This document shows positions 25,636-55,850 of a DNA stretch of 64,000 bases, one piece after another. A program made the position numbers and the translations under genes. The notes beneath the pieces were generated by a model. It saw only the letters and a program-made list of their open reading frames with translations. It did no database searches and was not told the origin of the DNA. Each line of letters opens with the position of its first letter. Positions within the stretch are counted from its first letter, which is position 1. Source of the stretch: Zelonia costaricensis (taxonomy: Eukaryota > Euglenozoa > Kinetoplastea > Trypanosomatida > Trypanosomatidae); the NCBI GenBank assembly GCA_030849075.1, contig JASAOO010003494.1, positions 1 to 64,000 of the forward strand, written 5' to 3'.

Positions 25636-27777
25636 TCACGAGGCAGAAGTCAGGAGCGCCGGGGCGGCGTCCTGCAGCCACTCCTCGTGCACCACCGAGA
25701 CGTCCTTCATGTACCGCTTCGTCGTGCGCACCACGCTGTTGAAGAGAACGAGCGCCGGCTTCTTGCGATGTGTGAAGAGGACGCTGGAGGGGTGGATGTG
25801 CACCGGCAGCTGGCCAACGATCGTCTGGTACATACCGAGCTTGGCGTTGTAGAAGGCGGCATTTAGAAAGTAGCCGAAGCACAGCGCGCGACGCAGCAGC
25901 TCCGCGTCGAGCAGCTTACCCTTCCGCTCCACCGCGCCCCCTGCGCCGCTTTCGCCGTACCGCAGCTGCTCGTAGCGCTCCAGCAGGTCCTCCGTTTCGG
26001 CGAGGTCGCGACTGCCCCCGTCTCGGCGGGCACGCTTCTGCGGCGGCGCCGGCGACGCGGGTCCGTGGTGGCCGTTGCTGGCGTGGCTGCTGTTGCCGTC
26101 GCTGCTGTCACGCCGCAGGTAGCGCAGTGACGGCGGGAGTATCTTGGCGAGCAGCTCGCTGTCACTCTTTTCCTCGAGGAGACTCTGCAGCTGCGTGATG
26201 ATGTCCTCGACCTTGAGCATCTGCCGGTGGCTCATCGAGTTGGACTCGCACCACGTCTTGCGCTGGTCGCGCGGCGAGCGGCGGTAGGCCTGGTAAATGC
26301 TCAGCAGGGTGGCGTGGTCGCCAGCGGACTTCGCGAAGGTCGCGCGGCAGCGGTCGGCCCCCTCCTTGAACTCGCGCGACGTGAGAAAGAGGTTCTCCGT
26401 GCTCGCCATGGCGATCACCACCACCGCCTCACGAGCGACGCCGAGGGCCTTGGCGGCGAGCAGCACCATCGCCGGCATCGGCTCGATTGGAAAGTCGGTC
26501 AGGCGGTCGCCGAGGGCGGTGATGCGGCCCTGCTTGTCGAGCGCTTGCAGCAGCATCAGCGTCTCCTCGGCCTTGGCAACGGCGCGAGGCTGTGGCACGT
26601 CCATAAACTCAAAAGCAAGAATATTGTCGATGTGCAGGCTCTTCATCTGCAGCACGACGCTGAGAAGGCTGCTGCGGCGGATTTCGGGAATGGTATTCTC
26701 GCTCAGGTTCTCAAACGCGTTGGCCGTGTACAGGCGGTAGCACTTGCCAGCCGCGACACGACCGGCGCGGCCGCTGCGCTGGGTCGCCTGAGCGCGGCTG
26801 ATGTCTACCTCCGTCAGCGCCTCCATGCCTGACTTGCTGTTGTAGTACTTCGCCTTGACCACCCCGCTGTCGACCACGTAGCGGATGCCCTCGACGGTGA
26901 TGGAGGTTTCGGCGATGTTGGTCGCCAGAATGACCTTGCGCTGTCCATTTGGGGTCGGCTCGAAGACGAGGAGCTGCTGCTCGTACGGCATCGCCGCGTA
27001 GAGCGTCAGCACTGCAAAGTCCGGCACCTCGCGCGGGAGCAGTTTCATCCGCTCAGTCAAGATGCGCTTCGCGTCCTCGATCTCCTCTTGGCCGGTGAGG
27101 AAGCACAGCACGTCGCCCGGCGGCTCTGTTTCGTGGATTTGCAGGACGGTGCTGATGGCGGCCTCGACGTAGTCGGCCTGGGGTTCGACCGTGTGCAGGA
27201 TCGTGACGGGAAACATCCGCCCGTGCACGACGCCGATCGGGGCGTTCCACCAGAACTTGGAGAAGTGCTCGGCGTTCAAGGTTGCCGACATTACAACAAT
27301 CTTGAGCGAGTCCTCGCGCTTCCGCGCGATTGCCTTGAGCAGACCAAACAGCACGTCCCCGTGCAGGGTGCGCTCGTGTGCCTCGTCGAGGATGATGCAC
27401 CCGTACTTGGACAGTGTCGGGTCCGCCTGTATCTCACGCAGCAAGATGCCGTCCGTGAGGAACTTCACCCGCGTCGCGTCTGTGCACGTGTCGTCGAAGC
27501 GGACCGCGTAGGCCACCTCGCCGCCAACCTTGCCACCGCGTTGCTGCGCGACGTGCCTGGCAATGCTGACAGCCGCCACACGGCGCGGCTGGGTGCAGCC
27601 GACGATGCCGGCACCGGGTCGCTTGCTCAAGATGTCGTCCCAGACGTACTGCGGGATCTGCGTCGTCTTGCCCGAGCCGGTCTCGCCCACAATGATGACG
27701 GCCTGGTTCTTGCGAATCATCCGCACAATTGACGCACGCGCCTCCGTCACCGGAAGCTGCGGACTGCTGCTCGCCAT
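25636..27777 (-). CDS. DEAH-box RNA helicase, DHX33-like
   Basis: All core motifs are present in the 713-residue product: I GETGSGKT (about 28-35), Ia TQPRRVAAV, II DEAH (about 129-132), III SAT, and VI QRSGRAGR. The winged-helix/HA2 and OB-fold follow, with a low-complexity insert near 540-575. The OB-fold ending IHPSSVLF ... KRYMKDVSVV ... WLQDAAP is closest in style to DHX33 and DHX35. The lack of an N-terminal extension and the overall size (human DHX33 is 707 aa) fit. DHX33 acts in ribosomal RNA synthesis and translation initiation in animals. DHX35 (spliceosome-linked) is the alternative. The start ATG (MASSS) is 50 bases after TTCTAG. Confidence 0.85.
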   Translation of the reverse strand: MASSSPQLPVTEARASIVRMIRKNQAVIIVGETGSGKTTQIPQYVWDDILSKRPGAGIVGCTQPRRVAAVSIARHVAQQRGGKVGGEVAYAVRFDDTCTDATRVKFLTDGILLREIQADPTLSKYGCIILDEAHERTLHGDVLFGLLKAIARKREDSLKIVVMSATLNAEHFSKFWWNAPIGVVHGRMFPVTILHTVEPQADYVEAAISTVLQIHETEPPGDVLCFLTGQEEIEDAKRILTERMKLLPREVPDFAVLTLYAAMPYEQQLLVFEPTPNGQRKVILATNIAETSITVEGIRYVVDSGVVKAKYYNSKSGMEALTEVDISRAQATQRSGRAGRVAAGKCYRLYTANAFENLSENTIPEIRRSSLLSVVLQMKSLHIDNILAFEFMDVPQPRAVAKAEETLMLLQALDKQGRITALGDRLTDFPIEPMPAMVLLAAKALGVAREAVVVIAMASTENLFLTSREFKEGADRCRATFAKSAGDHATLLSIYQAYRRSPRDQRKTWCESNSMSHRQMLKVEDIITQLQSLLEEKSDSELLAKILPPSLRYLRRDSSDGNSSHASNGHHGPASPAPPQKRARRDGGSRDLAETEDLLERYEQLRYGESGAGGAVERKGKLLDAELLRRALCFGYFLNAAFYNAKLGMYQTIVGQLPVHIHPSSVLFTHRKKPALVLFNSVVRTTKRYMKDVSVVHEEWLQDAAPALLTSAS

Positions 27778-28267
27778 GGTGGAGTGTGCGGCTTGTCTTT
27801 GTGTATGGGCAGAGGGCGGCAATTTCTAGAAGTGGAAACGCAATGAAGAGGGGTCAATAGGGTCAAGGGTAGGGAGGAGGAGAGGAGTGGTGGGGAGGGA
27901 GTGGGGGGTGGGGGACGGTCGAGTGCTGTACATGGGGTGGCGTAACGGGCATGGGTGCGGAGTACTTCACGCAGCACACCGGGTGGCCCCCCTCGAGCGT
28001 TTCTGATCTGTTTGTCTGTGTCTTCAGTGCCACAATGTCTGTCATCTTTTTTTTCTTTTTTAACCGCTTGCACTCGGCAGGTGCAACGCGCGAGCGAGCT
28101 CTCACGAGCAGAAAGCAGGGCCGTGTTGCTGCGGCTCTGCTCGGGCACACACATGCCGCGTGCCGTGGTCGCAGCGACTACGCGTCACTTCGGTTGTCTT
28201 CCTCTGTGAGAACCAACACACACACACACGCGCCGTCGCCGCACCGTACCTCGTTGCGCCTACGTCT
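27778..28267. other. Intergenic, 238-aa hypothetical / DEAH helicase
   Basis: C/T tracts lie at about 27866-27920 on the minus strand upstream of the helicase acceptor, and a T-rich + strand run near 28046-28063. No gene is seen. Confidence 0.65.
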
Positions 28268-31099: not shown

Positions 31100-33499
31100 T
31101 CAGGCGTCTGCGTCATACTTGCCCTTCCTCACGGCGCGCTGCAGCGTTGCCCTGGCGCCTCCTGCCTTCGCCTTGGACGTCTTCTTCTTGTTCGCGTACG
31201 CTGGCACGCGCTCCTGCCGCTCGACCTGGATCTGCTTCGTCCGTGCGAGGCGATCCTTGGAGCGCTTCTCGTGGTAGCGCTTGTCGTGGTAGTCGTCGCG
31301 CGGGGCGCGGGGCGGTGGCGCGGGGGTCGCGCCGGCGGTTGCCGGCTCCTGACCTTCACCGGTTGTGGCTGCTGCAGCCACTGGACCCGCGTCGGCCTGC
31401 GCGGTACCCCCACCACCCCCACCGCCTCCAGCACCACCACCGCGCCCGCCTCGGCCGCGTCGGTTGCGGCGACCGGCGCCGCCGTCGTCGTCGCTATCGG
31501 AGGCGTCGGCGATGATGTCGCCGCCCGCGAGGTGCACATCCTGCTGACCGTCGTCGAGCTCGTCCTCGTACATGATCTCGTTGAGCATGCGAATCTTCAC
31601 CTTCATGTCTTCGTCGACGTCGAAGGCATCGGACATGTACGACTGCGGATCGTTCATCGTGATCTTGTAATCCATCGTGTCCTCAGCCGTGTCCTCGCCG
31701 TCGACGGTGCAGCCGTCGTCGCCGTCCGAGTCGGTCACCAGCTCGTACAGGTCGCGGCCCAGCAGCCGGTACAGCGCCTCCGGCTCAAGTGCGTCGTCGA
31801 AGTCGTTCGGCGCGAGGTGCGCAGACGCGTCGCGGCGAGCACCCCCCGCAACCGCACCCTCTCCCGCCGGCGTCGCCGAGGTTGACACTGGCGAACTCAC
31901 ACCAACGCCCGCCTCCTCCGCAGCCAGCGCCGCTGCAAGTTCGGCGTCGGAAAGCCCGGTCGCGGTGAGCGGCCCGACCAGGTGCGGCGGCAAGTTCTCC
32001 ATGCTCGCGTCCATGATGAACTGCTCGACGTCGTTGCTGTAGAAGTTCAACGCAGCCCGCACGCCGCTGGCGCTGTACTGCGGGAAGACCTCCATCACCA
32101 TCGCGACCAGCGGGTCGTCCACCGTCTCCAGCGCGGACGTTACAGCCGCTGCCGGAGGCGGGGACGGCGAGGCGGCTGGTGTGCCGTGCTCCTCCGCGGT
32201 GCCCTGCCCCGTGGGCAGACCGGCCAGCGCGCACGTAATGGTGTCCTCTGACGCGCCGAGCCTCTTGGCCTCCTCGGTCAGCAAGAGGTGGCGCGCGAGG
32301 AGGTCGTCGATGTGCACGCCCTGCCGCACCACCTCGAGCAGCAGCAGCTCAAAAAAGCGCTGCCGGCTGCCGCGCGCCGCCTCGGAGAAGTCGTTGCTGT
32401 CTGCCGTCTCGGTGGTGAGGGTGAGCAGGACGTGCCCGAGCGACCCGTCCTTCGGGTCTTCTGGGAAGCGGAGGGGCGGGTACAGGAAGTGGAGGAGACC
32501 GAGGAAGGAGCCGTTGCCGTACGCTTGCAGAGTCTCCTCCACAAAGCCGCGCCCGTACTGCCGCAGGTACTCGCGGAGCTGACTGTAGGTACGCTGCGGC
32601 AACGGCGGCACGCAGTACGCGTCCACCTGCTGACGGCGCACCCCCTGCGTGGAGAAGGTGTGGTACAGCAGCAGCACCGACGACGTGTTGATCGCGGCGT
32701 TCGCAATCACGGCGTTGGCGCGGCTCAGAATGGCCCGCCGCGCGGTGAGCTCATCGCACACGATGATGAAGTGCTGCAGGATGGGGGAGACGACGTCGAC
32801 GACGACGCGCAGGGCGCGCAGGGTGCGTGGAAGCGAAAGGTAATCGGCGAGGAACGGTGCGCACTGCACAACGGCCCAGAACTGCTTCGTGAGGCGGTAC
32901 ACCTGCTCAAAGGTGGAGATGATGTCGCCCGGGAGTCGCTGGAAGCGGCCGCGCTGCAGCTCACGCGCGCAGCGCACGGCGAAGCGGTTGATGCCGTCCC
33001 ACCAGGTCGGCATGTACGTGTTCAGCGTGCACAGGTAGCCCGGGTTGAGCAGGATGAGCGAGGTCAGGGCAACCGAGGCGGCCGCACCACTGTGCCGCAG
33101 GAGCATCAGCGACGCGGGGAAAAGCACCTTCCACGGCAGAAGGACACCCAGCCGCGCTGCGAAGCTGCTCGACTCGACGTGCCGCCGCGAGCACGGCTCT
33201 GTCGCCGTGGCAAGCCGCAACACAATCTCAATCACGTGCTGCTCGCCGTCCGCCGCCACGGCACGCCGCTGCGCCTTGGAGTGGGAGCTGTGCGCGTGGT
33301 CCACCGCCGTGACGACGTTCAGCAGGACAGCCGGGAGGCGGTCGTGGTTCGCCACGACGGTCCAGAAGGTGAGGTCGTCGGCCCCGGCGAGGCGCTCGAT
33401 GCCGGCCCAGAGTTTGTCCGACAAGTCCACCGAGGGGAAGAAGGTGCTGCACACTGCGCCGCCGGCATCCGGGAACGCCACCTGAATGGACGTGGCCAT
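31100..33499 (-). CDS. ASCC2: ASCC2/Cue3-like CUE-domain protein
   Basis: The 799-residue product carries an N-terminal helical domain (about 1-420) as in ASCC2, then a CUE domain at about 460-506: DPLVAMVMEVFPQYSASG, then NDVEQFIMDASMENLPPHL, close to the human ASCC2 CUE ending in LPPHL. Further on is an IRMLNEIMYEDELDDG segment, like the YEDEYDDTYD stretch of ASCC2, then Gly/Arg-rich and basic tails. ASCC2 (yeast Cue3/Rqt3) binds K63-ubiquitin on stalled ribosomes and helps the ASCC3/Slh1 helicase split them. The start ATG lies seven bases after TTTGCAG. The basic C-terminus could bind RNA. The partner helicase is not in this window. Confidence 0.82.
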   Translation of the reverse strand: MATSIQVAFPDAGGAVCSTFFPSVDLSDKLWAGIERLAGADDLTFWTVVANHDRLPAVLLNVVTAVDHAHSSHSKAQRRAVAADGEQHVIEIVLRLATATEPCSRRHVESSSFAARLGVLLPWKVLFPASLMLLRHSGAAASVALTSLILLNPGYLCTLNTYMPTWWDGINRFAVRCARELQRGRFQRLPGDIISTFEQVYRLTKQFWAVVQCAPFLADYLSLPRTLRALRVVVDVVSPILQHFIIVCDELTARRAILSRANAVIANAAINTSSVLLLYHTFSTQGVRRQQVDAYCVPPLPQRTYSQLREYLRQYGRGFVEETLQAYGNGSFLGLLHFLYPPLRFPEDPKDGSLGHVLLTLTTETADSNDFSEAARGSRQRFFELLLLEVVRQGVHIDDLLARHLLLTEEAKRLGASEDTITCALAGLPTGQGTAEEHGTPAASPSPPPAAAVTSALETVDDPLVAMVMEVFPQYSASGVRAALNFYSNDVEQFIMDASMENLPPHLVGPLTATGLSDAELAAALAAEEAGVGVSSPVSTSATPAGEGAVAGGARRDASAHLAPNDFDDALEPEALYRLLGRDLYELVTDSDGDDGCTVDGEDTAEDTMDYKITMNDPQSYMSDAFDVDEDMKVKIRMLNEIMYEDELDDGQQDVHLAGGDIIADASDSDDDGGAGRRNRRGRGGRGGGAGGGGGGGGTAQADAGPVAAAATTGEGQEPATAGATPAPPPRAPRDDYHDKRYHEKRSKDRLARTKQIQVERQERVPAYANKKKTSKAKAGGARATLQRAVRKGKYDADA

Positions 33500-34195
33500 G
33501 ATGGAGCTGCAAATGGAGATCGGTGCGCGAAGAAAAGAGAGAGGGTGAGGTTTTGCAGTGTGTGCCGACGCAGAAACCGGCGCTGTCGCGAAGGCAGCCG
33601 CTGGACGACAACTGAATTGCTTGCTGAGTTCCACGCCAGCACCGTGTGTAGACGATGCAAGTTGCGAAGAACAAGAGGAGAGGAGGAAGCAGAAAAAAAA
33701 AAGAGGTGCAAAGAGAAACAAAGAGTAGGCGCACCCGCAACATGTCAGTGAGGCACAACGCTCACATACACAGAGGAAAAAAAAACGCAGCCGCCGTGGC
33801 AAACAGCTCCACAGCGTCCTCCGCCTTTTGAGGACGGCGCGCCTCCGTGCGTTTTGCTGATGCGTTGTGGACACCTTGTCACCACTACTGTGTGGCGATC
33901 ATCACGCTATTGCTTTGCTATCCCGTGACGCTGCTGTGGGACACGTAAACGAGACTAGATGGCGAGCGGCACAACCGCTGCTCTGTTTCGGCTTCGAGAC
34001 GCATCGCGCGCGCACACACACGGAGAGCTCGGCCTTGTCGACCAACGCGTGACTGGGTGCGTCGAGACGCAGCTGTCCGAGTGGGACCAGGAAAGAGAAA
34101 AAAACACGGCGACCCGCACAGGCGTTGGCTTTGGGCAAGGTCACACACGCACACACCTGTTGCCGCACCACCACACACTCGTCTGCGAGATCCAA
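33500..34195. other. Intergenic, ROCO-like / ASCC2-like
   Basis: Apart from the acceptor, an A10 run on the + strand near 33694-33703 and short A runs near 33778-33785 are seen. No gene is supported. Confidence 0.6.
33507..33555 (-). promoter_or_regulatory. 3' trans-splice acceptor, ASCC2-like gene
   Basis: The minus-strand tract CCTCACCCTCTCTCTTTTCT precedes ATTTGCAG with AG at 33508-33507. The predicted 5' UTR is seven bases. Confidence 0.7.
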
Positions 34196-37060
34196 CTACG
34201 TTTGGTCGCGCAGCAGCGTGCGCAGAAGGTCCTCCACACGCCGACACGCTGGATGCGGTGCGAGCGGTGCGGTCTCCGGCTCCACCTCGGAAGCGGCAGA
34301 CGCTGGAGGGGAGAGGGCAACGCCGGGTGTGCGCTGGAGTAGAAGGCGGCGCAGTTCCGTGCAGGTCGCCCGCTCCACAAAGTGCGCCTGCGTCGTTGAG
34401 TCCGCAAACACAAAAAGACGCAGAAGCTCCGCGGCGCGCGTCGGGGCGCCGCCCGCTGTTGGTGCGCAGTGCACAAACAGGCAAACGTTCCGCTCTACAC
34501 CGCGCCGGGAGCGCGATGCCGCCGCCGCGGCAAGCGGTGCCGTTGCACTCGACGCGCCAGTGGAGGTGCGAACACGGGCGTCAGCACCGCGAAAAAGGTG
34601 TCGCGTGTCGCCAGAGAGGAGAAGCGCGTCGTGGTACGCCCGCTCAACGTGCATGCCAACACTCGCAAAACGGCACAACAGAGAGGCCACAAAGTCGGCG
34701 GGAAACGGGTCCAGTTCCAGGCCGAGCTGCGTTGACGACACCTCGCCCGCCACCGCGGTCGCTGCAATCGACGCCTGTCGCTCGACTTGTTGCACAAGCA
34801 GTGTGGGGCACGGCAGGCGCACCTGTAGCGCCGGGACCACAAGCACCACATCACGAGCCGTGCCGGTGGGGGTGCGGTCATCGCCGCGGGCCACGTAGTG
34901 GGGGCTGTGAAGTGGGTCGCGGACTGGATCGTGGAAGGGGCCCGTGCTGCGTGACAGGGCTGCCGGGGATGCATCGGGGGCGGGGGTGAACTCGCCCAGC
35001 AAAAAAAGGGAGGTGAGCTGCGCCACCGTGGCGCTGCGCACGGTGCCTGCGTTGTCGCGTCCGTCCGCGTCGTCGAGGGCCGGCGACGAGACCGAGAGAC
35101 TCAGCAGCTCGTCCGCCGTGGCTGTAGAGGCGCCGTGTGCACTGCCGCGGATGGGGCTTGTGGCGCTGCTCGCTGGCGTCGATGCCGCTCCCCGCGAGCC
35201 CGGGGACGGCGGCTGCAGCGGGTGCTGCGCAGGCACAGAGGCGCTGGCTGTGGACGTGTCCGCGGCGCTGTCGCCTTCGCTGCACTGCGCGCAGCTCGTC
35301 GGCAGCTCAGCAGGCACGGTGAGGTAGGCGAGGTCGGCCCCAATGAGCGTGGCAGCGAGCACGTCAGCTGCCTCCGCGGGCGATGCGCCCTTCAGTGCGA
35401 GAGCCGTGGCCAGCTGGTGGAGAAGTGCGGCACGGAACTGCCCCTTGGCGGCTAGCCCTCCCTTGTCTGCGGTCTCGCACTCTTGCATGTCGACGCCGCG
35501 GAGGCACTTGCGGATGTGCCGGCGTTGCCGCCGCGCTGCCCAGTCGCTGTAGACGTAGACGACCGCCAGCGACGCGCGCAGCAGGGCGGGGCAGAGGCAG
35601 ACAGTCTCGTTGGTGCCTGGAAAGGCGCTGACGGCCCTTTCGTGCGCGTAGGCGAGCGCGCGGCCCAGCAGGACAACCTCGCCCGTCGCCTCCATCTGCC
35701 GGAGGGTGAGGTACAGCTGTTCGCGGGCCTGCATGCCGAGCGCGTAGGCCACCCGCCACAGCCGCGGCAGCGGGAGAAGCCAGGTCCGTTTGCGCGCCTT
35801 CAGCTCTGTGACGAAGTCCACCACGAGTGACGCCACCCGGGCGTCCTCAGCACGCGTCTCCCGCGTGGCGACTTCGCTGCTCACCGGCACCGCGGCAGCG
35901 TCGACGGCTTCCGTCACACGGAAGAGGCGCGGGCTAGCACGCCCGCCGCCGCCCACGTGTCGCACGCCACCGTGAAGAGCGGTCAGAGGGTTGTGGTGGC
36001 CAAGGAGGTGTCGCACTGCGTCGTCGGATGCAGGTAGCGGCGCCGGCGGGCTCACTGCCCGGGCCGAGGTGGCAACCCCGTTCAGCATCCGCGGCCACCA
36101 CGCGGCTAGCGAAAGCTGCTGCTGTGACCGCAACAGGACGCAGGTGTCCTCTGTAGTGCTCACAGCCACGACATCGTGCACGCGGGGCAGCCCCGGCGAC
36201 TCCTGCGCGGCCCTCGCGCACAAGCGTCGCAGAGCGGCGAGAATGGTGTGCGTCGCGGCCACGGAGGCGTCACGCAGCGTGTCTTGAAAGGTGCCAACGA
36301 GAAGCACTGCGGGCGGGGCCGCAAACGGCGTCGCCGTGGAGACGCGGCAGCACCGGCTGGCGATGGCACCGAGCAGCGTGCACAGAAGTTGGCACTCCCG
36401 TGCGTGAATGAACGCCTCAGTCGGCTTGGGTGCGGCACCGAAAAGCCCACCCACGACGCCACCAAAGCCCGCCCCATCCTCTGCCCTGCGCGTCTCGACC
36501 ACCTGCTTGACGCTGTAGAGCGGGAAGCAGAGGAGCACGACGTCGGCCTCGGCCACGGCCCACAAGCCGGCGCCACTCGTCAGCGGGGCGGGTCCGCTGT
36601 CGGTGATAGTCACCTCCAGCGCCGCGCACTCGGTCTCGGTGCGCAGGTCGTACGTTTGCACGGACATAATCGACGCGTCAAGCTTGAGCGAGGCCGCCGC
36701 GCCCGACACGATGAGCGGGTGCGCCGTCGTGCGCTCGGCCGCGGCGTCGAGGCTCGCACACAAGCTGGTGCGGCCACTCTCCGACTCCCCGACCACGGCG
36801 ACCTTTAACCGGTGGCGGCGCACGCGCTGCTCGGCCGTGTCGCGGCCAGAGCTCTTCTCTGTACCAGGCTCTGACGAGCTGTGGGAGACTGTGCCGCTAC
36901 TGAGGAGCACGGCTGCGGCAGCGCTGTCGTGTGCCTGTGCAAACAGGCGGCGGAGCAACCGTGGCACGGCGCTTGCCGGCGGCTCGGCGTCGCGCGCGTC
37001 GGCTGGCGAGGCGGCTGTGGTGACGTCATCCCCGCGGCGGCGCAACCCTGCGTCGTGCAT
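34196..37060 (-). CDS. Roc-COR (ROCO-like) protein with altered P-loop
   Basis: The 954-residue product begins its GTPase-like domain at about residue 80. The P-loop reads VVGESESGRT, i.e. GxxxxG[R]T with Arg where Lys is expected. A hydrophobic strand follows (ADVVLLCFPLYSV) and the base-recognition loop VGTFQD (about 250) resembles the GTHxD of Roc domains. From about residue 410 a COR-like region is visible: RLWRVAYALGMQ, LRQMEATGEVVLLG, then NETVCLCPALL; the COR-B-like half runs LDPFPADFVASLLCRF to NVCLFVH. A Ser/Ala insert separates the halves. No LRR or kinase is present. ROCO proteins are large multidomain GTPases, LRRK2 being one. This assignment is inference. An acceptor AG sits directly before the chosen ATG; starts at 37105 or 37186 are alternatives. 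Confidence 0.6.
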   Translation of the reverse strand: MHDAGLRRRGDDVTTAASPADARDAEPPASAVPRLLRRLFAQAHDSAAAAVLLSSGTVSHSSSEPGTEKSSGRDTAEQRVRRHRLKVAVVGESESGRTSLCASLDAAAERTTAHPLIVSGAAASLKLDASIMSVQTYDLRTETECAALEVTITDSGPAPLTSGAGLWAVAEADVVLLCFPLYSVKQVVETRRAEDGAGFGGVVGGLFGAAPKPTEAFIHARECQLLCTLLGAIASRCCRVSTATPFAAPPAVLLVGTFQDTLRDASVAATHTILAALRRLCARAAQESPGLPRVHDVVAVSTTEDTCVLLRSQQQLSLAAWWPRMLNGVATSARAVSPPAPLPASDDAVRHLLGHHNPLTALHGGVRHVGGGGRASPRLFRVTEAVDAAAVPVSSEVATRETRAEDARVASLVVDFVTELKARKRTWLLPLPRLWRVAYALGMQAREQLYLTLRQMEATGEVVLLGRALAYAHERAVSAFPGTNETVCLCPALLRASLAVVYVYSDWAARRQRRHIRKCLRGVDMQECETADKGGLAAKGQFRAALLHQLATALALKGASPAEAADVLAATLIGADLAYLTVPAELPTSCAQCSEGDSAADTSTASASVPAQHPLQPPSPGSRGAASTPASSATSPIRGSAHGASTATADELLSLSVSSPALDDADGRDNAGTVRSATVAQLTSLFLLGEFTPAPDASPAALSRSTGPFHDPVRDPLHSPHYVARGDDRTPTGTARDVVLVVPALQVRLPCPTLLVQQVERQASIAATAVAGEVSSTQLGLELDPFPADFVASLLCRFASVGMHVERAYHDALLLSGDTRHLFRGADARVRTSTGASSATAPLAAAAASRSRRGVERNVCLFVHCAPTAGGAPTRAAELLRLFVFADSTTQAHFVERATCTELRRLLLQRTPGVALSPPASAASEVEPETAPLAPHPACRRVEDLLRTLLRDQT

Positions 37061-37150
37061 CTGTGTTGTATGGCAATGGGTTCGATGAGCAGTGTGCACG
37101 GGCATGGTAAGAGACGGAGAGGGATGTGAAGAGGAGTCAGGACGAGTGCG
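37061..37150 (-). promoter_or_regulatory. Candidate acceptor flush with the ROCO-like ATG
   Basis: After a minus-strand C/T tract (about 37106-37150) the first AG is ACACAG at 37062-37061, immediately followed by ATG. If used, the leader is the spliced leader alone. An ATG at 37105 lies between tract and AG and would be discarded. Confidence 0.45.
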
Positions 37151-46106: not shown

Positions 46107-47309
46107 TTACAGGTGAGACTCCAGCGGCTGCGCTGTCTTGGTACAGCAAGCCACGAGCCGCTTCGTGAGCTGCACGCAGGCCAGCAGGTCACGGACGGCG
46201 GTGTACTCATTCGCTTCGTGGGCCCCGGCCGTGCCGGGCCCGATGATAACCGTTGGAATGCCCAGCTCCTCTTGAAAGAAGCCAGCCTCGGTCGTGCCGT
46301 TGCCCTTGACCACCTTGTAGTCGCTCATCAGCTTCCGCGCCAGCCGCGTGAAAGGGGCGTCCTCCTTGGCGTTGAAGGCGGGGCAGAAGCAAAACGCATC
46401 CAGCTCTACTGCAGCTTCGGCGTACTCCTCCCGCATCGCCGGCAGCACCACCTCTGCAAGGTACTGGCGGATGCGTGCGTCGACGCTCATGGCAACCTTG
46501 GTGTCGGCGATGCGGATGTTAAACTCGAAGGTGCATTCGGCCGGAACGGTGTTGACGGCGTTGCCGCCGGCAATGAGGTTTGTCGACATCGGGGAAAAGG
46601 GGCAGCCGTAGCTCGCGTCGCGGGTGTCATGGTCCCGCACGTCCTTGGCGATCTCGCGGATCTTCGTGATGATCTGCGCGGCGTACTCGATGGCGTTGCA
46701 GCTCGTGTTCATGAGCGCCATCGACGAGTGAATCGCCTTGCCTTTTACGGTGCACCGCCACACGCGGTGCCCCTTGTTGCCCGTCTGCACTTGCATGCCA
46801 CCGTCGCCAACGAGGCAGGCATCGGCGGTGATGCCGTGCTGCTTCATGTAGTCGATCAGAACCGGTATGCCGACGCAGCCGAGCTCCTCGTCGTAGGAGA
46901 AGGCGAGGTGCACCGGCTTCGCCCGCTTCGTCGCCAGGAAGGTCGGCACGAGCGCCAGTGCCACCGCCAGGAAGCCCTTCATGTCGCACGTGCCGCGGCC
47001 GTACAGCTTGCCGTCCTTTTCCACGAGGTGGAACGGGTCGCTGTTCCACTTCTGTCCAAGCACCGACACCACGTCGGTGTGGCCGGAGAGGATGATGCCA
47101 CCGGTGGTCACGCCGTTTTCGCCGGGCAGCGTGCAGAACAGGTGCGCCTTGTCCCTGTCCGCGTTGTACACGAGCTGCACCCTTTGCCGAATGGCCTCCA
47201 GGTAGTCACGGACATAGTAGACAAGCGCCAGATTCGACTTGGTGCACGTCGTGTCGAAGCTGACGAGCTTCGCCAGCCACTGTTTCGCGCTTTTGGGGTA
47301 CGTCGCCAT
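46107..47309 (-). CDS. M20/ArgE-family metallopeptidase
   Basis: The 400-residue product has the M20 pattern: LSGHTDVV (His near 78, Asp 80), GRGTCDMKG (Asp near 111, bridging metal), YDEELG (catalytic/metal Glu pair near 144-145), a dimerisation domain about 180-290, and a C-terminal GTTEAGFFQEELGIP...GAHEANEY metal His. Size is usual for acetylornithine deacetylase/carboxypeptidase-type members. Such enzymes cleave N-acyl amino acids or dipeptides using Zn or Co. No signal peptide is present, so it should be cytosolic. The start ATG (MATYPK) lies 21 bases after CCGCAG. Trypanosomatids annotate this as acetylornithine deacetylase-like; they lack a complete arginine pathway, so the true substrate is uncertain. 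Confidence 0.87.
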   Translation of the reverse strand: MATYPKSAKQWLAKLVSFDTTCTKSNLALVYYVRDYLEAIRQRVQLVYNADRDKAHLFCTLPGENGVTTGGIILSGHTDVVSVLGQKWNSDPFHLVEKDGKLYGRGTCDMKGFLAVALALVPTFLATKRAKPVHLAFSYDEELGCVGIPVLIDYMKQHGITADACLVGDGGMQVQTGNKGHRVWRCTVKGKAIHSSMALMNTSCNAIEYAAQIITKIREIAKDVRDHDTRDASYGCPFSPMSTNLIAGGNAVNTVPAECTFEFNIRIADTKVAMSVDARIRQYLAEVVLPAMREEYAEAAVELDAFCFCPAFNAKEDAPFTRLARKLMSDYKVVKGNGTTEAGFFQEELGIPTVIIGPGTAGAHEANEYTAVRDLLACVQLTKRLVACCTKTAQPLESHL

Positions 47310-47330
47310 TGGAGAGAGGGTCGCGCGACA

Positions 47331-47390
47331 CTGCGGTGTTTTTGATGGTGAGGGAAACGAAGAAGAAGAAAAAGAGGAAAAGCAAAGACG
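47331..47390 (-). promoter_or_regulatory. 3' trans-splice acceptor, M20 gene
   Basis: The minus-strand tract TTTTCCTCTTTTTCTTCTTC is followed by CACCGCAG with AG at 47332-47331. The predicted 5' UTR is 21 bases. Confidence 0.7.
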
Positions 47391-47646
47391 GGAAAATGTG
47401 CGCAGGAGAGAAGCGGGGAGACTTGTAGCACAGTAATGTGGCAGCAATGGGGCGAGGGAGTAACGAGGCGGCAGGTGTGGAATTGGCGCATTCGCAACAC
47501 ACAGGCTTGGCAAAGGGGACAAGGAAACGAGGAGAGGGAGGGAGAGCCAGCGGAGTCACGTCTGAGATGCAGCGGACGAGGGCAGCGCTGCTCACGGTCC
47601 GTTTTTCCTTCCAGCCCCCCCCCTCCACCCGACGGCCCCCGCCACG

Positions 47647-47905: not shown

Positions 47906-49987
47906 TCACTCCTCAACCTGTTCCTCCGCTTCTCCTCCTGCGGCAGCGTCTGTGCGCTGGAAGGTCTCCGTCGACGCAATGCAGAACTCTCGCAGGACGC
48001 TGGTGGCGTAGCAGCCCGGCGGCAGCGCAAAGGAGGCAACGACGGCTTGCACGGGCCCCGCCGGCTCAGCCGCCGCGCCAGCCCGCGGCACCCGCTCACC
48101 CGCGTCCGCGCGGGGCAGCGGGAGACCTTCTGCCCTGCAGTGCCGCTCCCAGTCGGACTCCAGCACCGGCGCGCGCCAGCTCGCGACCGTCTCGAGGCGC
48201 AGCGCAAAGTCCGTCGGCCGCACGCCAAGCGACCTGTAGGTGCCGTGGAAGTGGAACACCTTCGTGAGCGCCAGGGTCTCCTTCAGCGAGAAGTCCACGC
48301 CGAGGGCGGCCAGGACGGCGTCGTAGTCCGCACGCGTGCACCCCGGAGACCCAGGGTAGACGAGGTCCTGGTCCGGACCCGGCACGGGTAGCACGACGTC
48401 TGCGAGGCCATAGCGCGTGCAGTCGTCGTCCGCAGTGAGCTGCCGCACTGTCGGGAGCTTGGCCTCCTCCTCGCCCCACCGGGGCGCCGGCTCGGCGCCA
48501 GCAACGCGTGCCTGGTAGGTGGACTCAAGGACGAGGTCGCCCACCTCGGCCTGCACCCGCGCGGCGCTCGACAGCCGCGCCGAGGCGATGCGGTTCCACA
48601 CGAGGCTCTGCACGGCGTGGAAGTACATCATCGCCATGGTGCGCGCCATCGCCTGCAGCGCACCGAGGAAGTCGTTCGGGTTCGCGCACAGGTGCTTCAA
48701 GACGTCGCGCTCCTGGTAGCAGTAGTACGGGGACGCCTGCAGCGCCGCGGCGTAGTCGCTCGCGTCGTACAGCTCGACAACACGCTGCATTTCCGGTACC
48801 ATGCTTCCCTTCGAAACGAGCATGAGCCGCAACCCCTCCCGCAGGTGCCCTTGCAGGAACTGCACTCCAACGTCGCTCGTGAGCACGTCAGTCGTGCCAA
48901 AGCGCTGCGGCCCAAAGTAGTTGACAATGCCCCGCTCCCGCACCACCCGCTCCACCTCCAGTAGCCGCGCGGCAGTAGCGGCAGGCGGGGCGTCGGCACC
49001 GGTGCCACCCGGGAAGGCGCGGAGGACGATGCGGAAGTGGTTGCCGAGCGCGTCGCCGAGGCGCAGCCCGTGCTCCTCCTCGTTGAAGCCGCACACCTTG
49101 ATGACGTTGTGCGGCCCAAAGGTGCGCTCGTTGACGGTCCTGAGTCGCTCCACCGTCGTCTCCTTCACGGCAACCCGCTGCAGTGTGACGGCGCGCTTGT
49201 CCTTGGTGCCGCAAAACTGCAGCTGCCGCAGGGACAGCTTGAGGTGACCGGCAAGCATGCGCAGTGCCTGGTTGCTATCTGTGTTCTCCTTGTACAGGGT
49301 GAAGTGATGGTACTTTGGTGGCGGCCGGCTGACGCGAGAGCGGCGCCGCTCCTCGCGCCGGTCCGCCGCGTTCGCCTTGACCACCGTCACAACGCCGTCC
49401 ACGGTGTTGCTCACGTGGGTGCCGCCGAGGCACGCCTTGATGGCCTTGTGCAGCTCCGTCCGCTTCTCCTTGTCCGTCACGCTGGGCAGCGGAACCGCAC
49501 GGGCCTCCTCGGCGAGGCCGGCGAGGAGCCGTGCCAGGTCGTCGGTGCTGACGAGCGGTCCGATTGTGCTCGTGACAGCGCTGGACGCCGTCGTGCTGCT
49601 GGCGGTGGCGGCAGAGGCCGTAGCCGCGACCGCGTCCGTCTCGACTTCCGTTTCCTTCGCCTCTCCTGCGCGCGCCGCCGCCTCGACCTCACGAGGACGC
49701 TTGTGAGGCTGGTCGGGAGCAACGCCTGTCGCGACCGCGGCGCCGTCGTGTAGCTCCAGTACCAGAGGGGCACCGTTGCGGTAGAACGCGGGCAGCTCGC
49801 GCACCTCGAAGTCGGTGTACAGTGTCTTGAGCGACACGACCGGCAACGTAGCGGCACTTTTTTCACCGTTCTGCTCGCCGCCGCTCGTCAGCTCGACAAT
49901 GCGCCGCGTGGCGCCGATTCGTTCTTCGCGTGCGTGGTGCCTTCCCGCCACACTCGAGATGAAGCGTGTCAGCGAGTCGGGGTCCAT
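47906..49987 (-). CDS. PUS7: tRNA pseudouridine synthase, TruD/PUS7 family
   Basis: The 693-residue product contains the catalytic TruD motif FCGTKDKRAVT at about residues 254-264 (catalytic Asp in TKDKR) and the second family signature NYFGPQRFG (about 358-366). PUS7 makes pseudouridine-13 in tRNAs and modifies some mRNAs and snRNAs. An Ala/Thr-rich insert near residues 100-145 and an acidic C-terminus (EAEEQVEE) extend it. No mitochondrial signal is seen; the protein is probably nuclear or cytosolic. The start is the ATG at MDPDSL, preceded by CG and an A11 run on the transcribed strand, with the acceptor CACAG 54 bases upstream. Confidence 0.92.
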   Translation of the reverse strand: MDPDSLTRFISSVAGRHHAREERIGATRRIVELTSGGEQNGEKSAATLPVVSLKTLYTDFEVRELPAFYRNGAPLVLELHDGAAVATGVAPDQPHKRPREVEAAARAGEAKETEVETDAVAATASAATASSTTASSAVTSTIGPLVSTDDLARLLAGLAEEARAVPLPSVTDKEKRTELHKAIKACLGGTHVSNTVDGVVTVVKANAADRREERRRSRVSRPPPKYHHFTLYKENTDSNQALRMLAGHLKLSLRQLQFCGTKDKRAVTLQRVAVKETTVERLRTVNERTFGPHNVIKVCGFNEEEHGLRLGDALGNHFRIVLRAFPGGTGADAPPAATAARLLEVERVVRERGIVNYFGPQRFGTTDVLTSDVGVQFLQGHLREGLRLMLVSKGSMVPEMQRVVELYDASDYAAALQASPYYCYQERDVLKHLCANPNDFLGALQAMARTMAMMYFHAVQSLVWNRIASARLSSAARVQAEVGDLVLESTYQARVAGAEPAPRWGEEEAKLPTVRQLTADDDCTRYGLADVVLPVPGPDQDLVYPGSPGCTRADYDAVLAALGVDFSLKETLALTKVFHFHGTYRSLGVRPTDFALRLETVASWRAPVLESDWERHCRAEGLPLPRADAGERVPRAGAAAEPAGPVQAVVASFALPPGCYATSVLREFCIASTETFQRTDAAAGGEAEEQVEE

Positions 49988-50615
49988 CGTTTTTTTTTTT
50001 CTTCCTGTTGTTGGTTTGTGTTCAACTCTCTGACGCCCCGCCTGTGGTGCGTTGGTCCAGACATAAAAGAAGAAAAAAATGACGCGTTGTGGACGGGATA
50101 AAAAAAAAAGGGGATGCAAGACGTGGACACAAGCAGAGTCACCTGCGTTGTTGGCGACGGCACGGCTAATGCTGCAGAAAACCACAGCTGGGCCTGAGCA
50201 CAGGCGTACCGGGTTCACTTCGTCGCGACTTCGGCAGAAGAAGAGAAGTCATCGGCGCTTCGTTCTTGATTCGGGAGCGGCGGCTCACTTTCTTGTTTTC
50301 GTCTGTTCAGAGCAACTCGGCTGGCGGGAGAAGCGGGTGGCTGGGCAGGGATTGGAAAGGGAAACGAAGTCTGCGCAGGGCAGAGCACCCCTTCGCCTTC
50401 TCCTCCCCCCTCCCCCCAAAACGGAAGTCACCACTGTCACAAAAAAAAACACACACACACACACACACACACACGATTGTGACAACGTTACATGCACGTA
50501 AAACAAAGAAGGGAACGCCTCAGCCCACTCGGCGGCTCTCTTGACGACCGCTTTCCTCGTTTGCTCTCGCCCTTCTGCAGAGGCGCCTCCGTGCCGTGAC
50601 TTCGCCACACTGCCC
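49988..50615. other. Intergenic, Rab3GAP2-like / PUS7
   Basis: It holds the PUS7 acceptor and A11 leader run, an A10 run on the + strand near 50100-50109, and a CA microsatellite at 50449-50474. No gene is seen. Confidence 0.65.
50042..50085 (-). promoter_or_regulatory. 3' trans-splice acceptor, PUS7 gene
   Basis: The minus strand reads TTTTTTTCTTCTTTTATGTC, then CACCACAG with AG at 50043-50042. The predicted 5' UTR is 54 bases and includes an A11 run at 49990-50000 just before the start codon. Confidence 0.6.
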
Positions 50616-53600
50616 TCACAGGAGACGCTCCCACTTTTCGGCGATGAGCGGCAACTCGCGTGCCACGCGGCGTGTGGCGGGTGGGAGCAGCGCCGGACTC
50701 TCGCACACCCACTGCGACAGCGTGAAGAGGAGCTGGAAGAAGTTCTTCTGCACCGGCGACCCCCGCCCTGCGGCCAGGGCAGCGCTCACCAGGCGATGCA
50801 TGTCCTGGTGCTCCTGCGGGGTCACCCACTCCGCACTCGCGAAGAGCGACTCGAGCGCCGCCGCGCTCGTCGCCGGCTCCGCCCGCTCCTTCTTTTCAGG
50901 AGGTGTGGGCCCCGAGGCCATCGCCGCTTCCCGTTCCCGAAGCCAGCTCCGCACCTCGGCCGACAGCCCGTGCACCATGTCGCGGAGCTGCTCCGACGCA
51001 GCCTCGTGCGCGGCCCTGTCGCCCCGCAGCCCGCAGGCCCTCCGACGCGCCGTCACGTGCTGCAGCGTCAGCAGCAACAGTGACTGCAGCGCCGCGGCAG
51101 CCACCTGCGGCACGACCGACTTGTCCGACAGCAGCAGCATCTCCTGCTCCACCGCGGCGACAGGGAAGAGGTGCTTCACTTCAAAGTCCATGAGCACCAC
51201 GTCGGCGATGTCAGGGTGGCGTTCCTGCAGGCCGAGGCACTGGGCGAGTCGCGACAGGCTCCGACGCGTGTCGGGCGCCACCAGGCCCACGCACGGCGGC
51301 GGCGCCACGCTCCCGCTAGCTGTCACCGCCGGCGGGGGCTGCTGCTGGCTCGCAACGATGGCAGCGCCGGCGGCGAGAAAGCGCCGCAGCAGCGCGGCGG
51401 CCACCCCAACGTCCAGCGGTGCGCCTCGCGGGTCCTCCTCCTCCGCGGCGTACGGTGAGCGCGGCATGCCAGGCAGCGGGGCGGGCAGCGGAGGCAGCGC
51501 TTCTAGCGACGCACGCCGGGCCGAGGCGATCGCGGTCGCGGTCGTGGTGCTCTGCCCTGGCGGTGGTGTGTTGTTGGTGAGGAAGCCGGTCGGGAAGAGC
51601 TGCAGTTGCACCCAGCGGCTCGGCCCGCCCAGCAAGTCCCGCCACGGGACGCTGAGGTGCGACTGGAGCTGCGTCAGCGGCACCCCGCCCATCGTCAAGG
51701 CCGACGCCTCCGAGAAGAAGAGGAGGAGCTCGACAAGCTGACGCACGCGGCGGGCGCGACGCAGTGGGGCACGCGGGGTCTGCACCAGCACCTGCATCCA
51801 GATGGTGAGCCGCACGCGTAGGAAGTTCGGCACGAGCGGGAAGAGCAGCGCGTCGTCGCTCGCGAGGGCTAGGCTGATGCGCTGCAGCAGCAGCACCCGC
51901 TCCGCGTTCTGCAGCGGGGCGACGGTCTGCGCGACAATGCGCTCCAGAAAGCTCGCGAGTCGCTGGAGGCTCTTCAGGTAGTCGCGTGACGTGCGGCTGC
52001 CCGAGAGCACCAGGCCAGCAGGCGCGCCGTCGACCGGAAAGAAGTTGCCATCCGGCACGGCGTTCGTCTCCCAAAAGAAGAAGGCGACGTCGGTGAGCGG
52101 GCGTAGGGCGTGCTGCAGCACACTCATCGTCACGAGAATCTGGCACGACTCGTACACTGCAGACGCACCCCCGCGCGCCGGCCCTTTACCGAGCAGCCCA
52201 CCCGTGCTGGCGGTGGTGAGCTGCTGCCACAGCTGCTCCAGCGGCCGGACCGCCTCGTTGTGAAACCGCTCCGCATCCCAGCGGCGCTCGTCAATCCAGG
52301 GCACCGCCTCGACTGTGACGGCGTCGGGGTCGCTCACGTAGCCGGCTTCGCCCAGCAGCGACACGAACGCGGAGAAGAGCGGGAAGAGGCGCGCCGCGTC
52401 CGCGTCGGCATCGCCGCGTGGCACGGCGAACCCGTCCAGCAGCGCGATTGAGAAGCCGTTGCGCTGCAGGTACACCTCCACGACGTCGCCGTCCACATGC
52501 GCCGCCACTGCACCGGAAGCCGCGCCGTCACTGGCTGGTGCAGGGGCTCCTCGCGCCATCGCGTGGCCGTCGCCTACTTGCTCGCCGGTGCCAGCAGTCC
52601 CTGGCACGGACGGCGGCTCGACAGCGCAGAGCCGCAGGAACAGCGCGACACGCTCGTCCGAGAAGGCGACGGCGTCGTCCGTCTCGGTTGGCGGCGCGGC
52701 CGCACCCTTCCGCAGCGCCTGCCACAGCTGCAGCAGCTGCCTCAAGCGCCGGTCGAGGCGCTCTCGCTCGGCGAGGGGCGGTGACGCAGGCAGCAGCGCC
52801 GCCCGCACGGCCGCGCACCACAGCAGCCCCGCCACGCTGTCCGCCGCCGCCGCCCACGCGACGTCGCCCTCGACGGCCACAAAAGGGACCGGCGCCCGCT
52901 CGAGCGCGGCGACGAAGTGCCCGCCCGAGAACGTCAGCAGCGTTGCGGCAAGGCAGCCGACGGTGGTGCTGGCAAACAGCGCGGCCAGGTTGCGGCCAGC
53001 CTGCCGGGCCACCCACGTCACGGTAAGGCTGGCGACGTCGCTGTCGGTGCAGCCCACGTCGCGCAGCGCCGGCAGCTGGGCCAGGAAGCCGTCCAGCCCG
53101 CGGACCCCGTAGACGAGGTCGGAAAGCGGGCCCATAAAGTTGACGCTGCCGTCCGCGTCCTCGGCGGCCGCGATGGCGCCACGCAGAAAGGTGGGCCGCG
53201 CAGTGCCCACGTAGAAGCAGCGCAAAAACACGTGCAGCGGCATGCGGCTCGCGGAGAGGCACCCGGGCGACGCTGCGGCTGCTGTCGTGTGCGCCTCACG
53301 CATGCGTCGATGCAGGTACGGGGCGAGTTGCTTCTTGTAGACGTTCTGTTCCGCCGGGTACGCCGCGAGAGAGGCTGTGAACTGCGCCTCGACGGCCCGC
53401 GTGAACGCCGCGGCGGGGGCCGAGGCGGCCGTGCAAAACGTTGCCTTCCAGAGGTCCGGTGTGACAAGGGCGGAGGTCCACTGCAGCGGGTCAAAGTAGC
53501 GCGTCGCTGCGGCCGACACGGCCTTGCACGTGAGGAGACGGTGATAGTTCTCCACGAGGCCCGCGTAGAGCTGAATGTAGTGCAAGCACTGGGCAGCCGT

Positions 53601-55850
53601 CAAGCCGCGCGGCACGACGGGCGCCGTCGTGCCCTCGAGAATGTCACGCGCCGTGCCGCCGCGCATCGGCGTTGTCGCGATCTCCGCGTACCCTGGCGCG
53701 AACCGCCGCTGTACAGTGTTGCACACCAGCGCCAGGTCGCCGAGGAACCCGCGAACGGCGTCGCCGCCGGTGATGTGGCAGCCCGACGGCGCGTTGGCGT
53801 CCTGCTGCACGTGGTGCTGCGGTAGCGGGAGCTGCAGCGCGACGTCCAGAAAGTCGTCGGGGGTCTGGCAGCCCCGCAGCAGCGAAGCGCTCACCACGGA
53901 CGAGGCGGCGTTCTGGGCAGGGGCGCTCGCGCCTGTTTTGGCGGACAGGCGCGAGGGGTCGTAGGTGGTGGCTGCTGCGGCGGCGACCCACGAGATGGTG
54001 ACGCGGTAGACGTGGCCAGCGGGGTCCATGAGCAGGGCCGCCGGACCGTCGCCACCGAGCGGCGGCTGCCGGCCACGGACGCTCGTCGAGAGCGCGCCGA
54101 AACGCGTCTCGCTTGGCGGCCCGGCAGTGCGGAGGAGGACGCTGCCCTCGGGCACGTGGCGCGCGGCGAGGCGCTGGCCGGTGCGAGCCGTGTATACCTC
54201 GACTGCGCGGCGCAGGGGAAGGTAGACGACGAGGAGCAGTGCTGGTCGACCGCCGCCGTCGCCACCCCCGCTGCCGCTGCTCGCCGTTGTCTCTGTCCAC
54301 CACCACGTAAACTGCGCCGTGCGGCAGCCCTTGAGCACGCCCGTCACGACGCCGTTCTCGAGGTCGGCAATGTAGATGCGGCCCCCGCCCTCGACGGCGA
54401 AGGCGGCCCACTGCTGCGTCGCGTCCACCTGCACGGCCCCGCACTTGGCGTCCGCCTGCAGAAACGCGTGCTTGCGCGGCGCTGCCACCTTCTTGAGGTG
54501 TGGCGGCCGCTCCACCGGCCCGGTCGTGCCCAGCGCACTGAGCCACAGCGAGCGCGCCACCCCAGTGACCATGTTCTTCACCGCCTTGACGGTGTTGGAT
54601 GCCGAGAAGCCTGACGGCGCAGACTGGAGGCGGTAGCTCGCGAAGAACGGGTTGGTGCCGGCGACGAGCAGCACCTCGGCGCACCCGCGTTGGGGTCCGA
54701 GCGGGGCCAGCAACGGCGACGGCCCGTCGTTGAGGGGCTGCAGAAAGAGGTCGGCGTCGCGGATGGAGAAAGCGGTCGTCTCGGCTGTGGCCGCCTTGGC
54801 CGTTGCCGTGCCGCCCTCGATGTTCGAGTACGCCGTCGACGGCGGGGCCAGTACGAAGACGCCGCTCACCAGATTCGCCATCTCACTGGCTGGGCCGGCG
54901 ATCGGGAAGGCCGCTGTCGATGTGTCGGGCGACCACTCGAGGATGAGGTGCGGACGGCGGCCGTCGAGGCGGTCGATGGAGGCGCGCACGCACGTGTCCA
55001 GCGCCGCCCGGGTCAGTTCCACCACCTTTCCACCGCTGTGCAACACGTACACGCTCGCCAGCCGCGACCCGGCCGTGGGCGACTCCTGCGCGCTCTTCCT
55101 CTTCCCCGCGCTTGCGGTGCCTGCACCCGCGGCGCTGACGCCCTGCGTGTACGGGATCGCCGGGTTCCAGAGTTGCGCGTCGGATCGCTGCCGCACCACA
55201 AACTTGACCACCGCCTCGTTGACCTTGGCACGGTGCGGTGCCGCCTCGCTGCCCGTGTCCGTGCCCGCCGTCTCTCCGGTGCGGGCGGTGTCGGTCGTCG
55301 TGAGGCGGTCGCCGCGTCGCTCGTCGTCGAAGCGGTGGTGGTACTGAAACTGCGCCACCACGAGGATGGTGCCGCGCAGGGCGTTGCCAATCAAGACAGT
55401 GCCGTTCGAGGTGCCAATGAAGAAGTGCACGTGGACGTGGTGCACCGAGACGCCGTCCGCGCCACCGCCGCTGCTGCTGCTGCTGGACGGACCACCACCG
55501 CTCGTCGCCTCCTGCGCCTCGAGGGCCGCGGCGAAGGAGGTGCCGACGGGCTCGCGCACGAGGGCGACGGTTTCAATGACGCCCTCGTCCTCGGCAACCA
55601 GCTGAATCACCCGCGGCACGCGAAAGCCGGACTTGAGGGCCGCCGGCACGGGTGCTGCCGCGGTGCTCGGCGAAGCAACGGGCTGCACCAGCTCCAGCAC
55701 GCACCGATTCTTGGCACGCACCATGGTGGCTATGAGGTACACCTCGGGGAACACCTCGACGACGGTTGAGGCGGTCGCACGCGACGAGGATGCGGCCTCG
55801 CGCGGGGGCACCTGCCCCACCCTCGTCAGCTCAAGCGGTGTCGTCTCCAT
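50616..55850 (-). CDS. RAB3GAP2: Rab3GAP regulatory (non-catalytic) subunit-like protein
   Basis: This 1744-residue protein has an N-terminal half of WD/beta-propeller-like strands with the PF14655-type signature at about residues 465-545: DAKCGAVQVDATQQWAAF, GGGRIYIADLENG, KGCRTAQFTW, then VVYLPLRRAVEVYTARTGQ, close to the KGYRDAQIGW and Y-P-R-x-LEVW features of RAB3GAP2. The C-terminal half is helical. In animals Rab3GAP1/2 is a GAP for Rab3 and an exchange factor for Rab18, acting in ER, Golgi and autophagy traffic. The start ATG (METTPL) follows TCAAG plus five bases. Several Ser/Gly/Ala low-complexity inserts enlarge it relative to human (1393 aa). The catalytic partner is not in this window. 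Confidence 0.72.
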   Translation of the reverse strand: METTPLELTRVGQVPPREAASSSRATASTVVEVFPEVYLIATMVRAKNRCVLELVQPVASPSTAAAPVPAALKSGFRVPRVIQLVAEDEGVIETVALVREPVGTSFAAALEAQEATSGGGPSSSSSSGGGADGVSVHHVHVHFFIGTSNGTVLIGNALRGTILVVAQFQYHHRFDDERRGDRLTTTDTARTGETAGTDTGSEAAPHRAKVNEAVVKFVVRQRSDAQLWNPAIPYTQGVSAAGAGTASAGKRKSAQESPTAGSRLASVYVLHSGGKVVELTRAALDTCVRASIDRLDGRRPHLILEWSPDTSTAAFPIAGPASEMANLVSGVFVLAPPSTAYSNIEGGTATAKAATAETTAFSIRDADLFLQPLNDGPSPLLAPLGPQRGCAEVLLVAGTNPFFASYRLQSAPSGFSASNTVKAVKNMVTGVARSLWLSALGTTGPVERPPHLKKVAAPRKHAFLQADAKCGAVQVDATQQWAAFAVEGGGRIYIADLENGVVTGVLKGCRTAQFTWWWTETTASSGSGGGDGGGRPALLLVVYLPLRRAVEVYTARTGQRLAARHVPEGSVLLRTAGPPSETRFGALSTSVRGRQPPLGGDGPAALLMDPAGHVYRVTISWVAAAAATTYDPSRLSAKTGASAPAQNAASSVVSASLLRGCQTPDDFLDVALQLPLPQHHVQQDANAPSGCHITGGDAVRGFLGDLALVCNTVQRRFAPGYAEIATTPMRGGTARDILEGTTAPVVPRGLTAAQCLHYIQLYAGLVENYHRLLTCKAVSAAATRYFDPLQWTSALVTPDLWKATFCTAASAPAAAFTRAVEAQFTASLAAYPAEQNVYKKQLAPYLHRRMREAHTTAAAASPGCLSASRMPLHVFLRCFYVGTARPTFLRGAIAAAEDADGSVNFMGPLSDLVYGVRGLDGFLAQLPALRDVGCTDSDVASLTVTWVARQAGRNLAALFASTTVGCLAATLLTFSGGHFVAALERAPVPFVAVEGDVAWAAAADSVAGLLWCAAVRAALLPASPPLAERERLDRRLRQLLQLWQALRKGAAAPPTETDDAVAFSDERVALFLRLCAVEPPSVPGTAGTGEQVGDGHAMARGAPAPASDGAASGAVAAHVDGDVVEVYLQRNGFSIALLDGFAVPRGDADADAARLFPLFSAFVSLLGEAGYVSDPDAVTVEAVPWIDERRWDAERFHNEAVRPLEQLWQQLTTASTGGLLGKGPARGGASAVYESCQILVTMSVLQHALRPLTDVAFFFWETNAVPDGNFFPVDGAPAGLVLSGSRTSRDYLKSLQRLASFLERIVAQTVAPLQNAERVLLLQRISLALASDDALLFPLVPNFLRVRLTIWMQVLVQTPRAPLRRARRVRQLVELLLFFSEASALTMGGVPLTQLQSHLSVPWRDLLGGPSRWVQLQLFPTGFLTNNTPPPGQSTTTATAIASARRASLEALPPLPAPLPGMPRSPYAAEEEDPRGAPLDVGVAAALLRRFLAAGAAIVASQQQPPPAVTASGSVAPPPCVGLVAPDTRRSLSRLAQCLGLQERHPDIADVVLMDFEVKHLFPVAAVEQEMLLLSDKSVVPQVAAAALQSLLLLTLQHVTARRRACGLRGDRAAHEAASEQLRDMVHGLSAEVRSWLREREAAMASGPTPPEKKERAEPATSAAALESLFASAEWVTPQEHQDMHRLVSAALAAGRGSPVQKNFFQLLFTLSQWVCESPALLPPATRRVARELPLIAEKWERLL

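Follow-up and report, generated by a model that had tools for sequence, protein, structure and literature searches.

The stretch of Zelonia costaricensis DNA analysed here (contig JASAOO010003494.1, positions 1 to 64,000; the window, 64,000 nucleotides long) carries on its minus strand an open reading frame of 954 codons plus a stop codon (37060-34196), the coordinates of which are exactly those of an initial annotation made from the sequence alone. Its product is probably a degenerate Roco, related to the proteins in which a Ras-like Roc G domain is followed by a COR domain, and its gene is separate from that of a canonical Roco encoded by the same genome. The gene and its features are listed below.

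34196..37060, minus strand: whole gene, pseudo-Roco of 954 amino acids; open frame with ATG at 37060 and stop codon at 34196-34198
37061..37063, minus strand: candidate trans-splice acceptor, CAG adjoining the ATG (read from the sequence; function putative)
36056..36817, minus strand: Roc-like Ras-fold G domain, residues 82-335
36767..36790, minus strand: degenerate G1/P-loop GESESGRT, residues 91-98, with R97 for Lys (family comparison)
36581..36601, minus strand: DSGPAPL, residues 154-160, replacing G3/switch II (canonical counterpart DFAGQE)
36281..36295, minus strand: G4 motif GTFQD, residues 256-260 (counterpart of canonical (A)THLD)
36155..36166, minus strand: G5 region AVST, residues 299-302 (canonical AVSCK; the following Lys is lost)
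35336..35878, minus strand: COR-A-like domain, residues 395-575 (hhalign, single-row tests, AlphaFold2 with canonical rows)
34856..35293, minus strand: low-complexity linker, residues 590-735 (family alignment; predicted local distance difference test, pLDDT, <35)
34331..34855, minus strand: possible COR-B, residues 736-910 (element order, low-confidence model)

The gene is real and conserved. Its frame has no internal stops, the remaining five frames of the same stretch holding 11-19 each, and its GC content by codon position (0.732/0.574/0.789) is biased at the third position like that of five neighbouring frames, albeit at a lower value than theirs (0.805-0.861). The Met-His start recurs in two orthologues (P0003 and P0004), which supports the assigned ATG, and the CAG immediately before it, the first AG downstream of a pyrimidine-rich tract (∼37170-37105), could by its position be a trans-splice acceptor. 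A search of a 5.8-billion-protein database (7,993 candidates scored) yielded five relatives, including those of Leptomonas pyrrhocoris, L. seymouri, Lotmaria passim and Novymonas esmeraldas, which share 44-46% identity with the protein in a six-member family alignment; full-length frames are present in all six members. An iterated profile search (7,995 candidates scored) returned the same five and none further, but because only these candidates were scored, remote relatives may have been missed. Leishmania and Trypanosoma are not among the four named sources of orthologues in either search, which is no proof of loss, while a comparable search with the canonical Roco did reach both.

A Ras-like fold of the G domain was predicted from an alignment devoid of any Roco sequences. 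The Arg-for-Lys replacement in the P-loop, to which the initial annotation had drawn attention, is a fixed trait of the family: R97 and T98 occur in 6/6 members, with Lys at the Arg position in 12/12 canonical Rocos compared, and such invariance means that the Arg is neither a sequencing error nor a matter of chance. At switch I the Thr is lost, Ser-Gly being found there in all six members, and the DSGPAPL stretch (D154-L160), likewise unchanged in 6/6, lacks the canonical Gly and Gln. The similarity of VGTFQD to the GTHxD of Roc domains, also proposed initially, was confirmed, since residues 256-260 correspond to G4; this motif appears in the family as GTFQD, GTFHD or GTLQD, and its Thr and Asp (T257, D260) are invariant and kept in the target and canonical families alike. 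None of the six members thus retains intact G1-G3 motifs (GxxxxGK[ST], switch-I Thr, DxxG), all of which the genome's canonical Roco possesses. Hence, the product is better described as a degenerate Roco-derived protein than as a Roco GTPase, and a GTPase fold whose catalytic motif residues are missing places it among the pseudoGTPases, the loss of activity itself being a prediction. The G3 and switch-I losses, together with the separate canonical gene and the narrow set of species found, go beyond the initial annotation.

To relate the protein to the Roco family, the profile of the target family (6 rows) was compared by hhalign with that of 18 canonical rows. The G domain matched the canonical Roc over 77 columns (P 2.4e-4), and COR-A its counterpart over 124 columns in register (P 1.2e-4). 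Not one of 150 column shuffles reached the real score in either case, reversed profiles gave P values of 0.19 (G-Roc) and 0.46 (COR-A), and comparison of the G domain or COR-A with any other single domain gave 0.36-0.95. Against four more distant Rocos the G domain reached P 1.6e-5 over 170 columns, and the same COR-A register was recovered with each target row alone (6/6; P 1.8e-6 to 0.014). A free MAFFT run also brought the G domain and COR-A, though not COR-B, into register; 21 columns are invariant among the 18 rows. The arrangement of the Roco family, a Ras-like Roc G domain with COR-A C-terminal of it, was therefore found, at scores short of the Pfam thresholds. In agreement with the initial annotation, leucine-rich repeats (LRR) and a kinase are absent: none of the six members has a Pfam match to either at E≤10. 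The protein accordingly falls outside the LRRK group.

An AlphaFold2 model of residues 82-595 was built from the six target and 12 canonical rows merged (18 in total). Its mean pLDDT is 70.9 and its predicted template modelling score 0.49; 14 of the 17 blocks over residues 402-571 were modelled at pLDDT 82-93, and a low-confidence spacer of ∼60 residues separates the G domain from COR-A. The first row of the Foldseek search with this model was dimeric LRRK1 (E 2.1e-6, 482 columns, root mean square deviation (rmsd) 10.8), row 6 was the RocCOR of Methanosarcina barkeri Roco2 (454 columns, rmsd 13.8) and row 11 LRRK2 (428 columns, rmsd 11.2); besides these three proteins, none of the best 50 rows exceeded 300 columns. 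In VIA alignments, LRRK1 (8e05) covered model residues 1-503 with 314 aligned residues (rmsd 8.7) and LRRK2 (8fo7) model residues 1-408 with 244 (rmsd 6.8), deviations which show that the relative placement of the domains is not reproduced. Since canonical rows are part of the alignment, the merged model serves as a consistency check and not as independent proof.

Several observations weigh against a Roco origin. The hhalign probabilities are modest (43.5% for G-Roc, 55.2% for COR-A), the comparison of whole with whole is weaker than that of single domains (P 0.0021, probability 13.5%), and the domain cuts were chosen post hoc, the likeness having already been seen by eye. No significant BLASTP match to the canonical Roco was obtained (best E 2.4), a Pfam scan of the protein and all six members at E≤10 matched neither Roc nor COR, and genome searches with PF08477 and PF16095 did not return the gene. 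The G domain matches a Rab profile from its own genome about as well as Roc, yet over 24 P-loop columns only. As regards COR-A, the confident model is partly circular (12 of the 18 rows are canonical), and in a Roco-free model the COR part stayed mostly at pLDDT <50, so that the structural comparison with Roc and COR proposed in the initial annotation supports COR-A, with LRRK1 on top, only when canonical rows are included. For COR-A, P was 0.29 against two LRR-type Rocos, 0.09 against P0046 and P0047 and 0.068 against all four together, none of these being a match; when the canonical profile was reduced to its first 13 rows, the P value of COR-A rose to 0.0075 and the Roc match shrank to 24 columns. 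For COR-B, the profile comparison gave P 0.35, with 60 of 150 shuffles equally good, and hhalign in global mode gave no support, its null being erratic (maximum 125). GTPase Der led the PDB searches made with the family profile (E 7e-4) and with the G profile (E 5.5e-4), in both through the P-loop region, the other rows being weak (LRRK2 at E 1.0 with the G profile); the single protein yielded one chance row and nothing else, and no Roco chains were found with the COR-A profile.

The COR-like layout in two halves that had been suggested initially is consequently upheld for the first half and unproven for the second. The order of elements in residues 736-910 of the Roco-free model, which is of low confidence there, resembles by eye the order suggested by the canonical sequence. 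Merging the two families (alignment A6) left their COR-B parts unaligned, for which reason the last structure model was restricted to residues 82-595; COR-B is not demonstrated in this protein. In the preceding linker, a TVAxLTSLFLLGE block (residues 678-690; 34991-35029, minus strand) is nearly invariant in 6/6 members amid unconserved surroundings and represents a possible binding motif.

The genome's canonical Roco (L009:271-3156) is encoded on the minus strand at G000:C742:25714-28599. C742 is the only place in the assembly that matches COR-A at E≤10 (E 0.003, below the cut-off), and this match shares a 1039-codon frame with a Roc match of 55 bits. Read from a GTG, L009 comprises 962 amino acids, in which Roc scores 50 bits and COR-A and COR-B are matched below their cut-offs; the canonical motifs are GYQEVGKTS, TTTG, DFAGQE, THLD and SCK. 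Its 45 relatives include proteins of Leishmania, Trypanosoma, Phytomonas, Angomonas, Porcisia and Bodo, with source labels such as ‘hypothetical protein’, ‘Miro-like protein/Ras family’ and ‘Roc domain-containing’. A zinc-ribbon-like CPNQDC..CPTC stretch was seen by eye in the C-terminal part of L009. In Bodo saltans P0033 (1635 amino acids) a kinesin motor (PF00225) and an FHA domain precede the canonical Roco; a kinesin domain was found in 10 of the 45 relatives, P0033 among them, and in none of the named trypanosomatid matches. Elsewhere, inside a 2284-codon frame, a weak TBLASTN match to residues 400-494 of the canonical Roco (E 0.001, 35%) lies at G000:C227:15359-15625 (plus strand).

The two families have evolved differently. 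With the same three species compared, the protein of the window is 47-49% identical to its orthologues, whereas the canonical Roco is 75-80% identical. Mean identity in the target family is higher in COR-A (65%) than in the G domain (57%), the reverse of the 12 canonical Rocos (50% and 59%, respectively). In a phylogenetic tree, in which the canonical row P0031 was trimmed at a wrong P-loop-like site, the target clade was supported by 100/100 and the window protein was sister to that of Novymonas (98/100). The branch leading from this clade to all others measured 4.57 changes per column, too long for the tree to separate a recent duplication from an old paralogue. On sequence comparison, the protein is a fast-evolving relative of the LRRK2 protein family. 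The label of LRRK2 family member given initially is nevertheless too specific, considering the failure of COR-A to match two LRR-type Rocos, and ‘divergent relative of kinetoplastid Roco’ suits the protein better.

The canonical kinetoplastid Roco shares with the protein the order of G domain and COR-A, the latter in register, as well as the lack of kinesin, LRR and kinase in the named trypanosomatid matches; it differs in its intact nucleotide motifs, zinc-ribbon-like cysteines, slow evolution and presence in many kinetoplastids, and the identity between the two amounts to ∼19-21%. The merged model aligns over >400 columns to the Roc-COR structures of LRRK1, LRRK2 and M. barkeri Roco2, from which the protein is distinguished by the absence of LRR and kinase and by its degenerate P-loop and switch II. 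The pseudoGTPases CENP-M and Rnd1/3 and the pseudoGTPase domains of p190RhoGAP, GTPase folds that serve as scaffolds, regulators or interaction domains, have undergone a comparable catalytic loss, but are not presented as Roc-COR proteins in the available part of the source (PMC10211241).

Taken together, we consider it probable that this is the gene of a second and strongly diverged Roc-COR protein of Leptomonas/Novymonas-type trypanosomatids, the Roc domain of which has degenerated to a pseudoGTPase. Of the initial proposal of a stand-alone Roc-COR pseudo-GTPase in a trypanosomatid, this retains the Roco-related G domain, COR-A and the fixed Lys-to-Arg change, COR-B and membership at the Pfam level being so far unsupported. 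One alternative is that a Ras-like pseudoGTPase is joined to an unrelated helical or winged-helix C-terminal part, with COR-A likeness arising by convergence and the merged model copying its Roco rows. The want of a predicted COR-A without such rows, of any Pfam match, of a match to the COR of LRR-type Rocos and of COR-B would all fit; yet a 124-column match in register, unequalled by any shuffle, recovered from each of the six single rows and preceded by a Roc match, renders this explanation improbable. A decaying copy heading for loss would agree with identities lower than those of the canonical Roco across the three species compared and with the few species found, but is very unlikely given the six full-length frames, the invariance of DSGPAPL and many COR-A columns across the family and the coding bias kept by the window gene.

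The altered G motifs are conserved, and the site is therefore kept for something. It might still belong to a working Roco GTPase in which Arg substitutes for the P-loop Lys and the G domain cycles with switch-II residues supplied from elsewhere; the strong conservation of GExESGRT, D154 and the G4 T..D in 6/6 members speaks for selection on the site, although it would equally fit a structural role, and the loss of the switch-I Thr, the G3 Gly and Gln and the G5 Lys makes such an enzyme unlikely. Since catalytic residues are lost, GTP turnover is argued against, and the degenerate Roco is quite likely dead with respect to hydrolysis, probably working as a binding scaffold rather than an enzyme. 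On this reading, Roc has decayed through fixation of Arg for the P-loop Lys and the disappearance of the switch-I Thr and switch-II DxxGQ, with the G4 Asp retained; COR-A has been preserved and is better conserved than the G domain. GTP would not be hydrolysed and would be bound weakly or not at all, leaving a nucleotide-insensitive Roc-COR interaction module that could self-associate via COR or pair with the canonical Roco. That the protein has the cell's canonical Roco as its partner is a tentative suggestion, and it is somewhat more doubtful still that it represents a nucleotide-switch-free pseudo-Roco devoted to partnering or regulating the canonical Roco through COR and confined to one branch of insect trypanosomatids. 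If so, the pair would be comparable to a pseudokinase and its kinase. For LRRK2 it is still open what share of Roc-COR function is owed to GTP turnover and what share to assembly through COR; a protein with lost switch residues and a better conserved COR-A, next to an ordinary Roco in the same genome, offers a natural test.

One review lists Rocos of prokaryotes, Dictyostelium, plants and animals (PMC6320773), another those of prokaryotes, metazoa and plants (PMC6337361); the words ‘kinetoplast’, ‘leishmania’ and ‘protozoa’ do not occur in the available part of the former, nor ‘protozoa’ in that of the latter, and the accessible portion of PMC2175518 contains nothing on a kinetoplastid Roco. 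Among the matches listed from the open-licence literature, none concerned a canonical or degenerate kinetoplastid Roco or a pseudoGTPase Roco, and none combined kinesin, Roco and Bodo saltans.

The frame adjoining the gene downstream (31103-33874, minus strand) has no Pfam match at 0.01; its product contains what we take, by eye, to be a CUE-like stretch presumably recalling ASCC2. Further genes were assigned in the window as follows.

50619-55925, minus strand: RAB3GAP2-like gene
47909-50218, minus strand: TruD pseudouridine synthase gene
46110-47522, minus strand: M20 peptidase gene
25639-27822, minus strand: DEAH helicase gene

These four genes share the strand of the degenerate Roco gene, as in a trypanosomatid polycistron.
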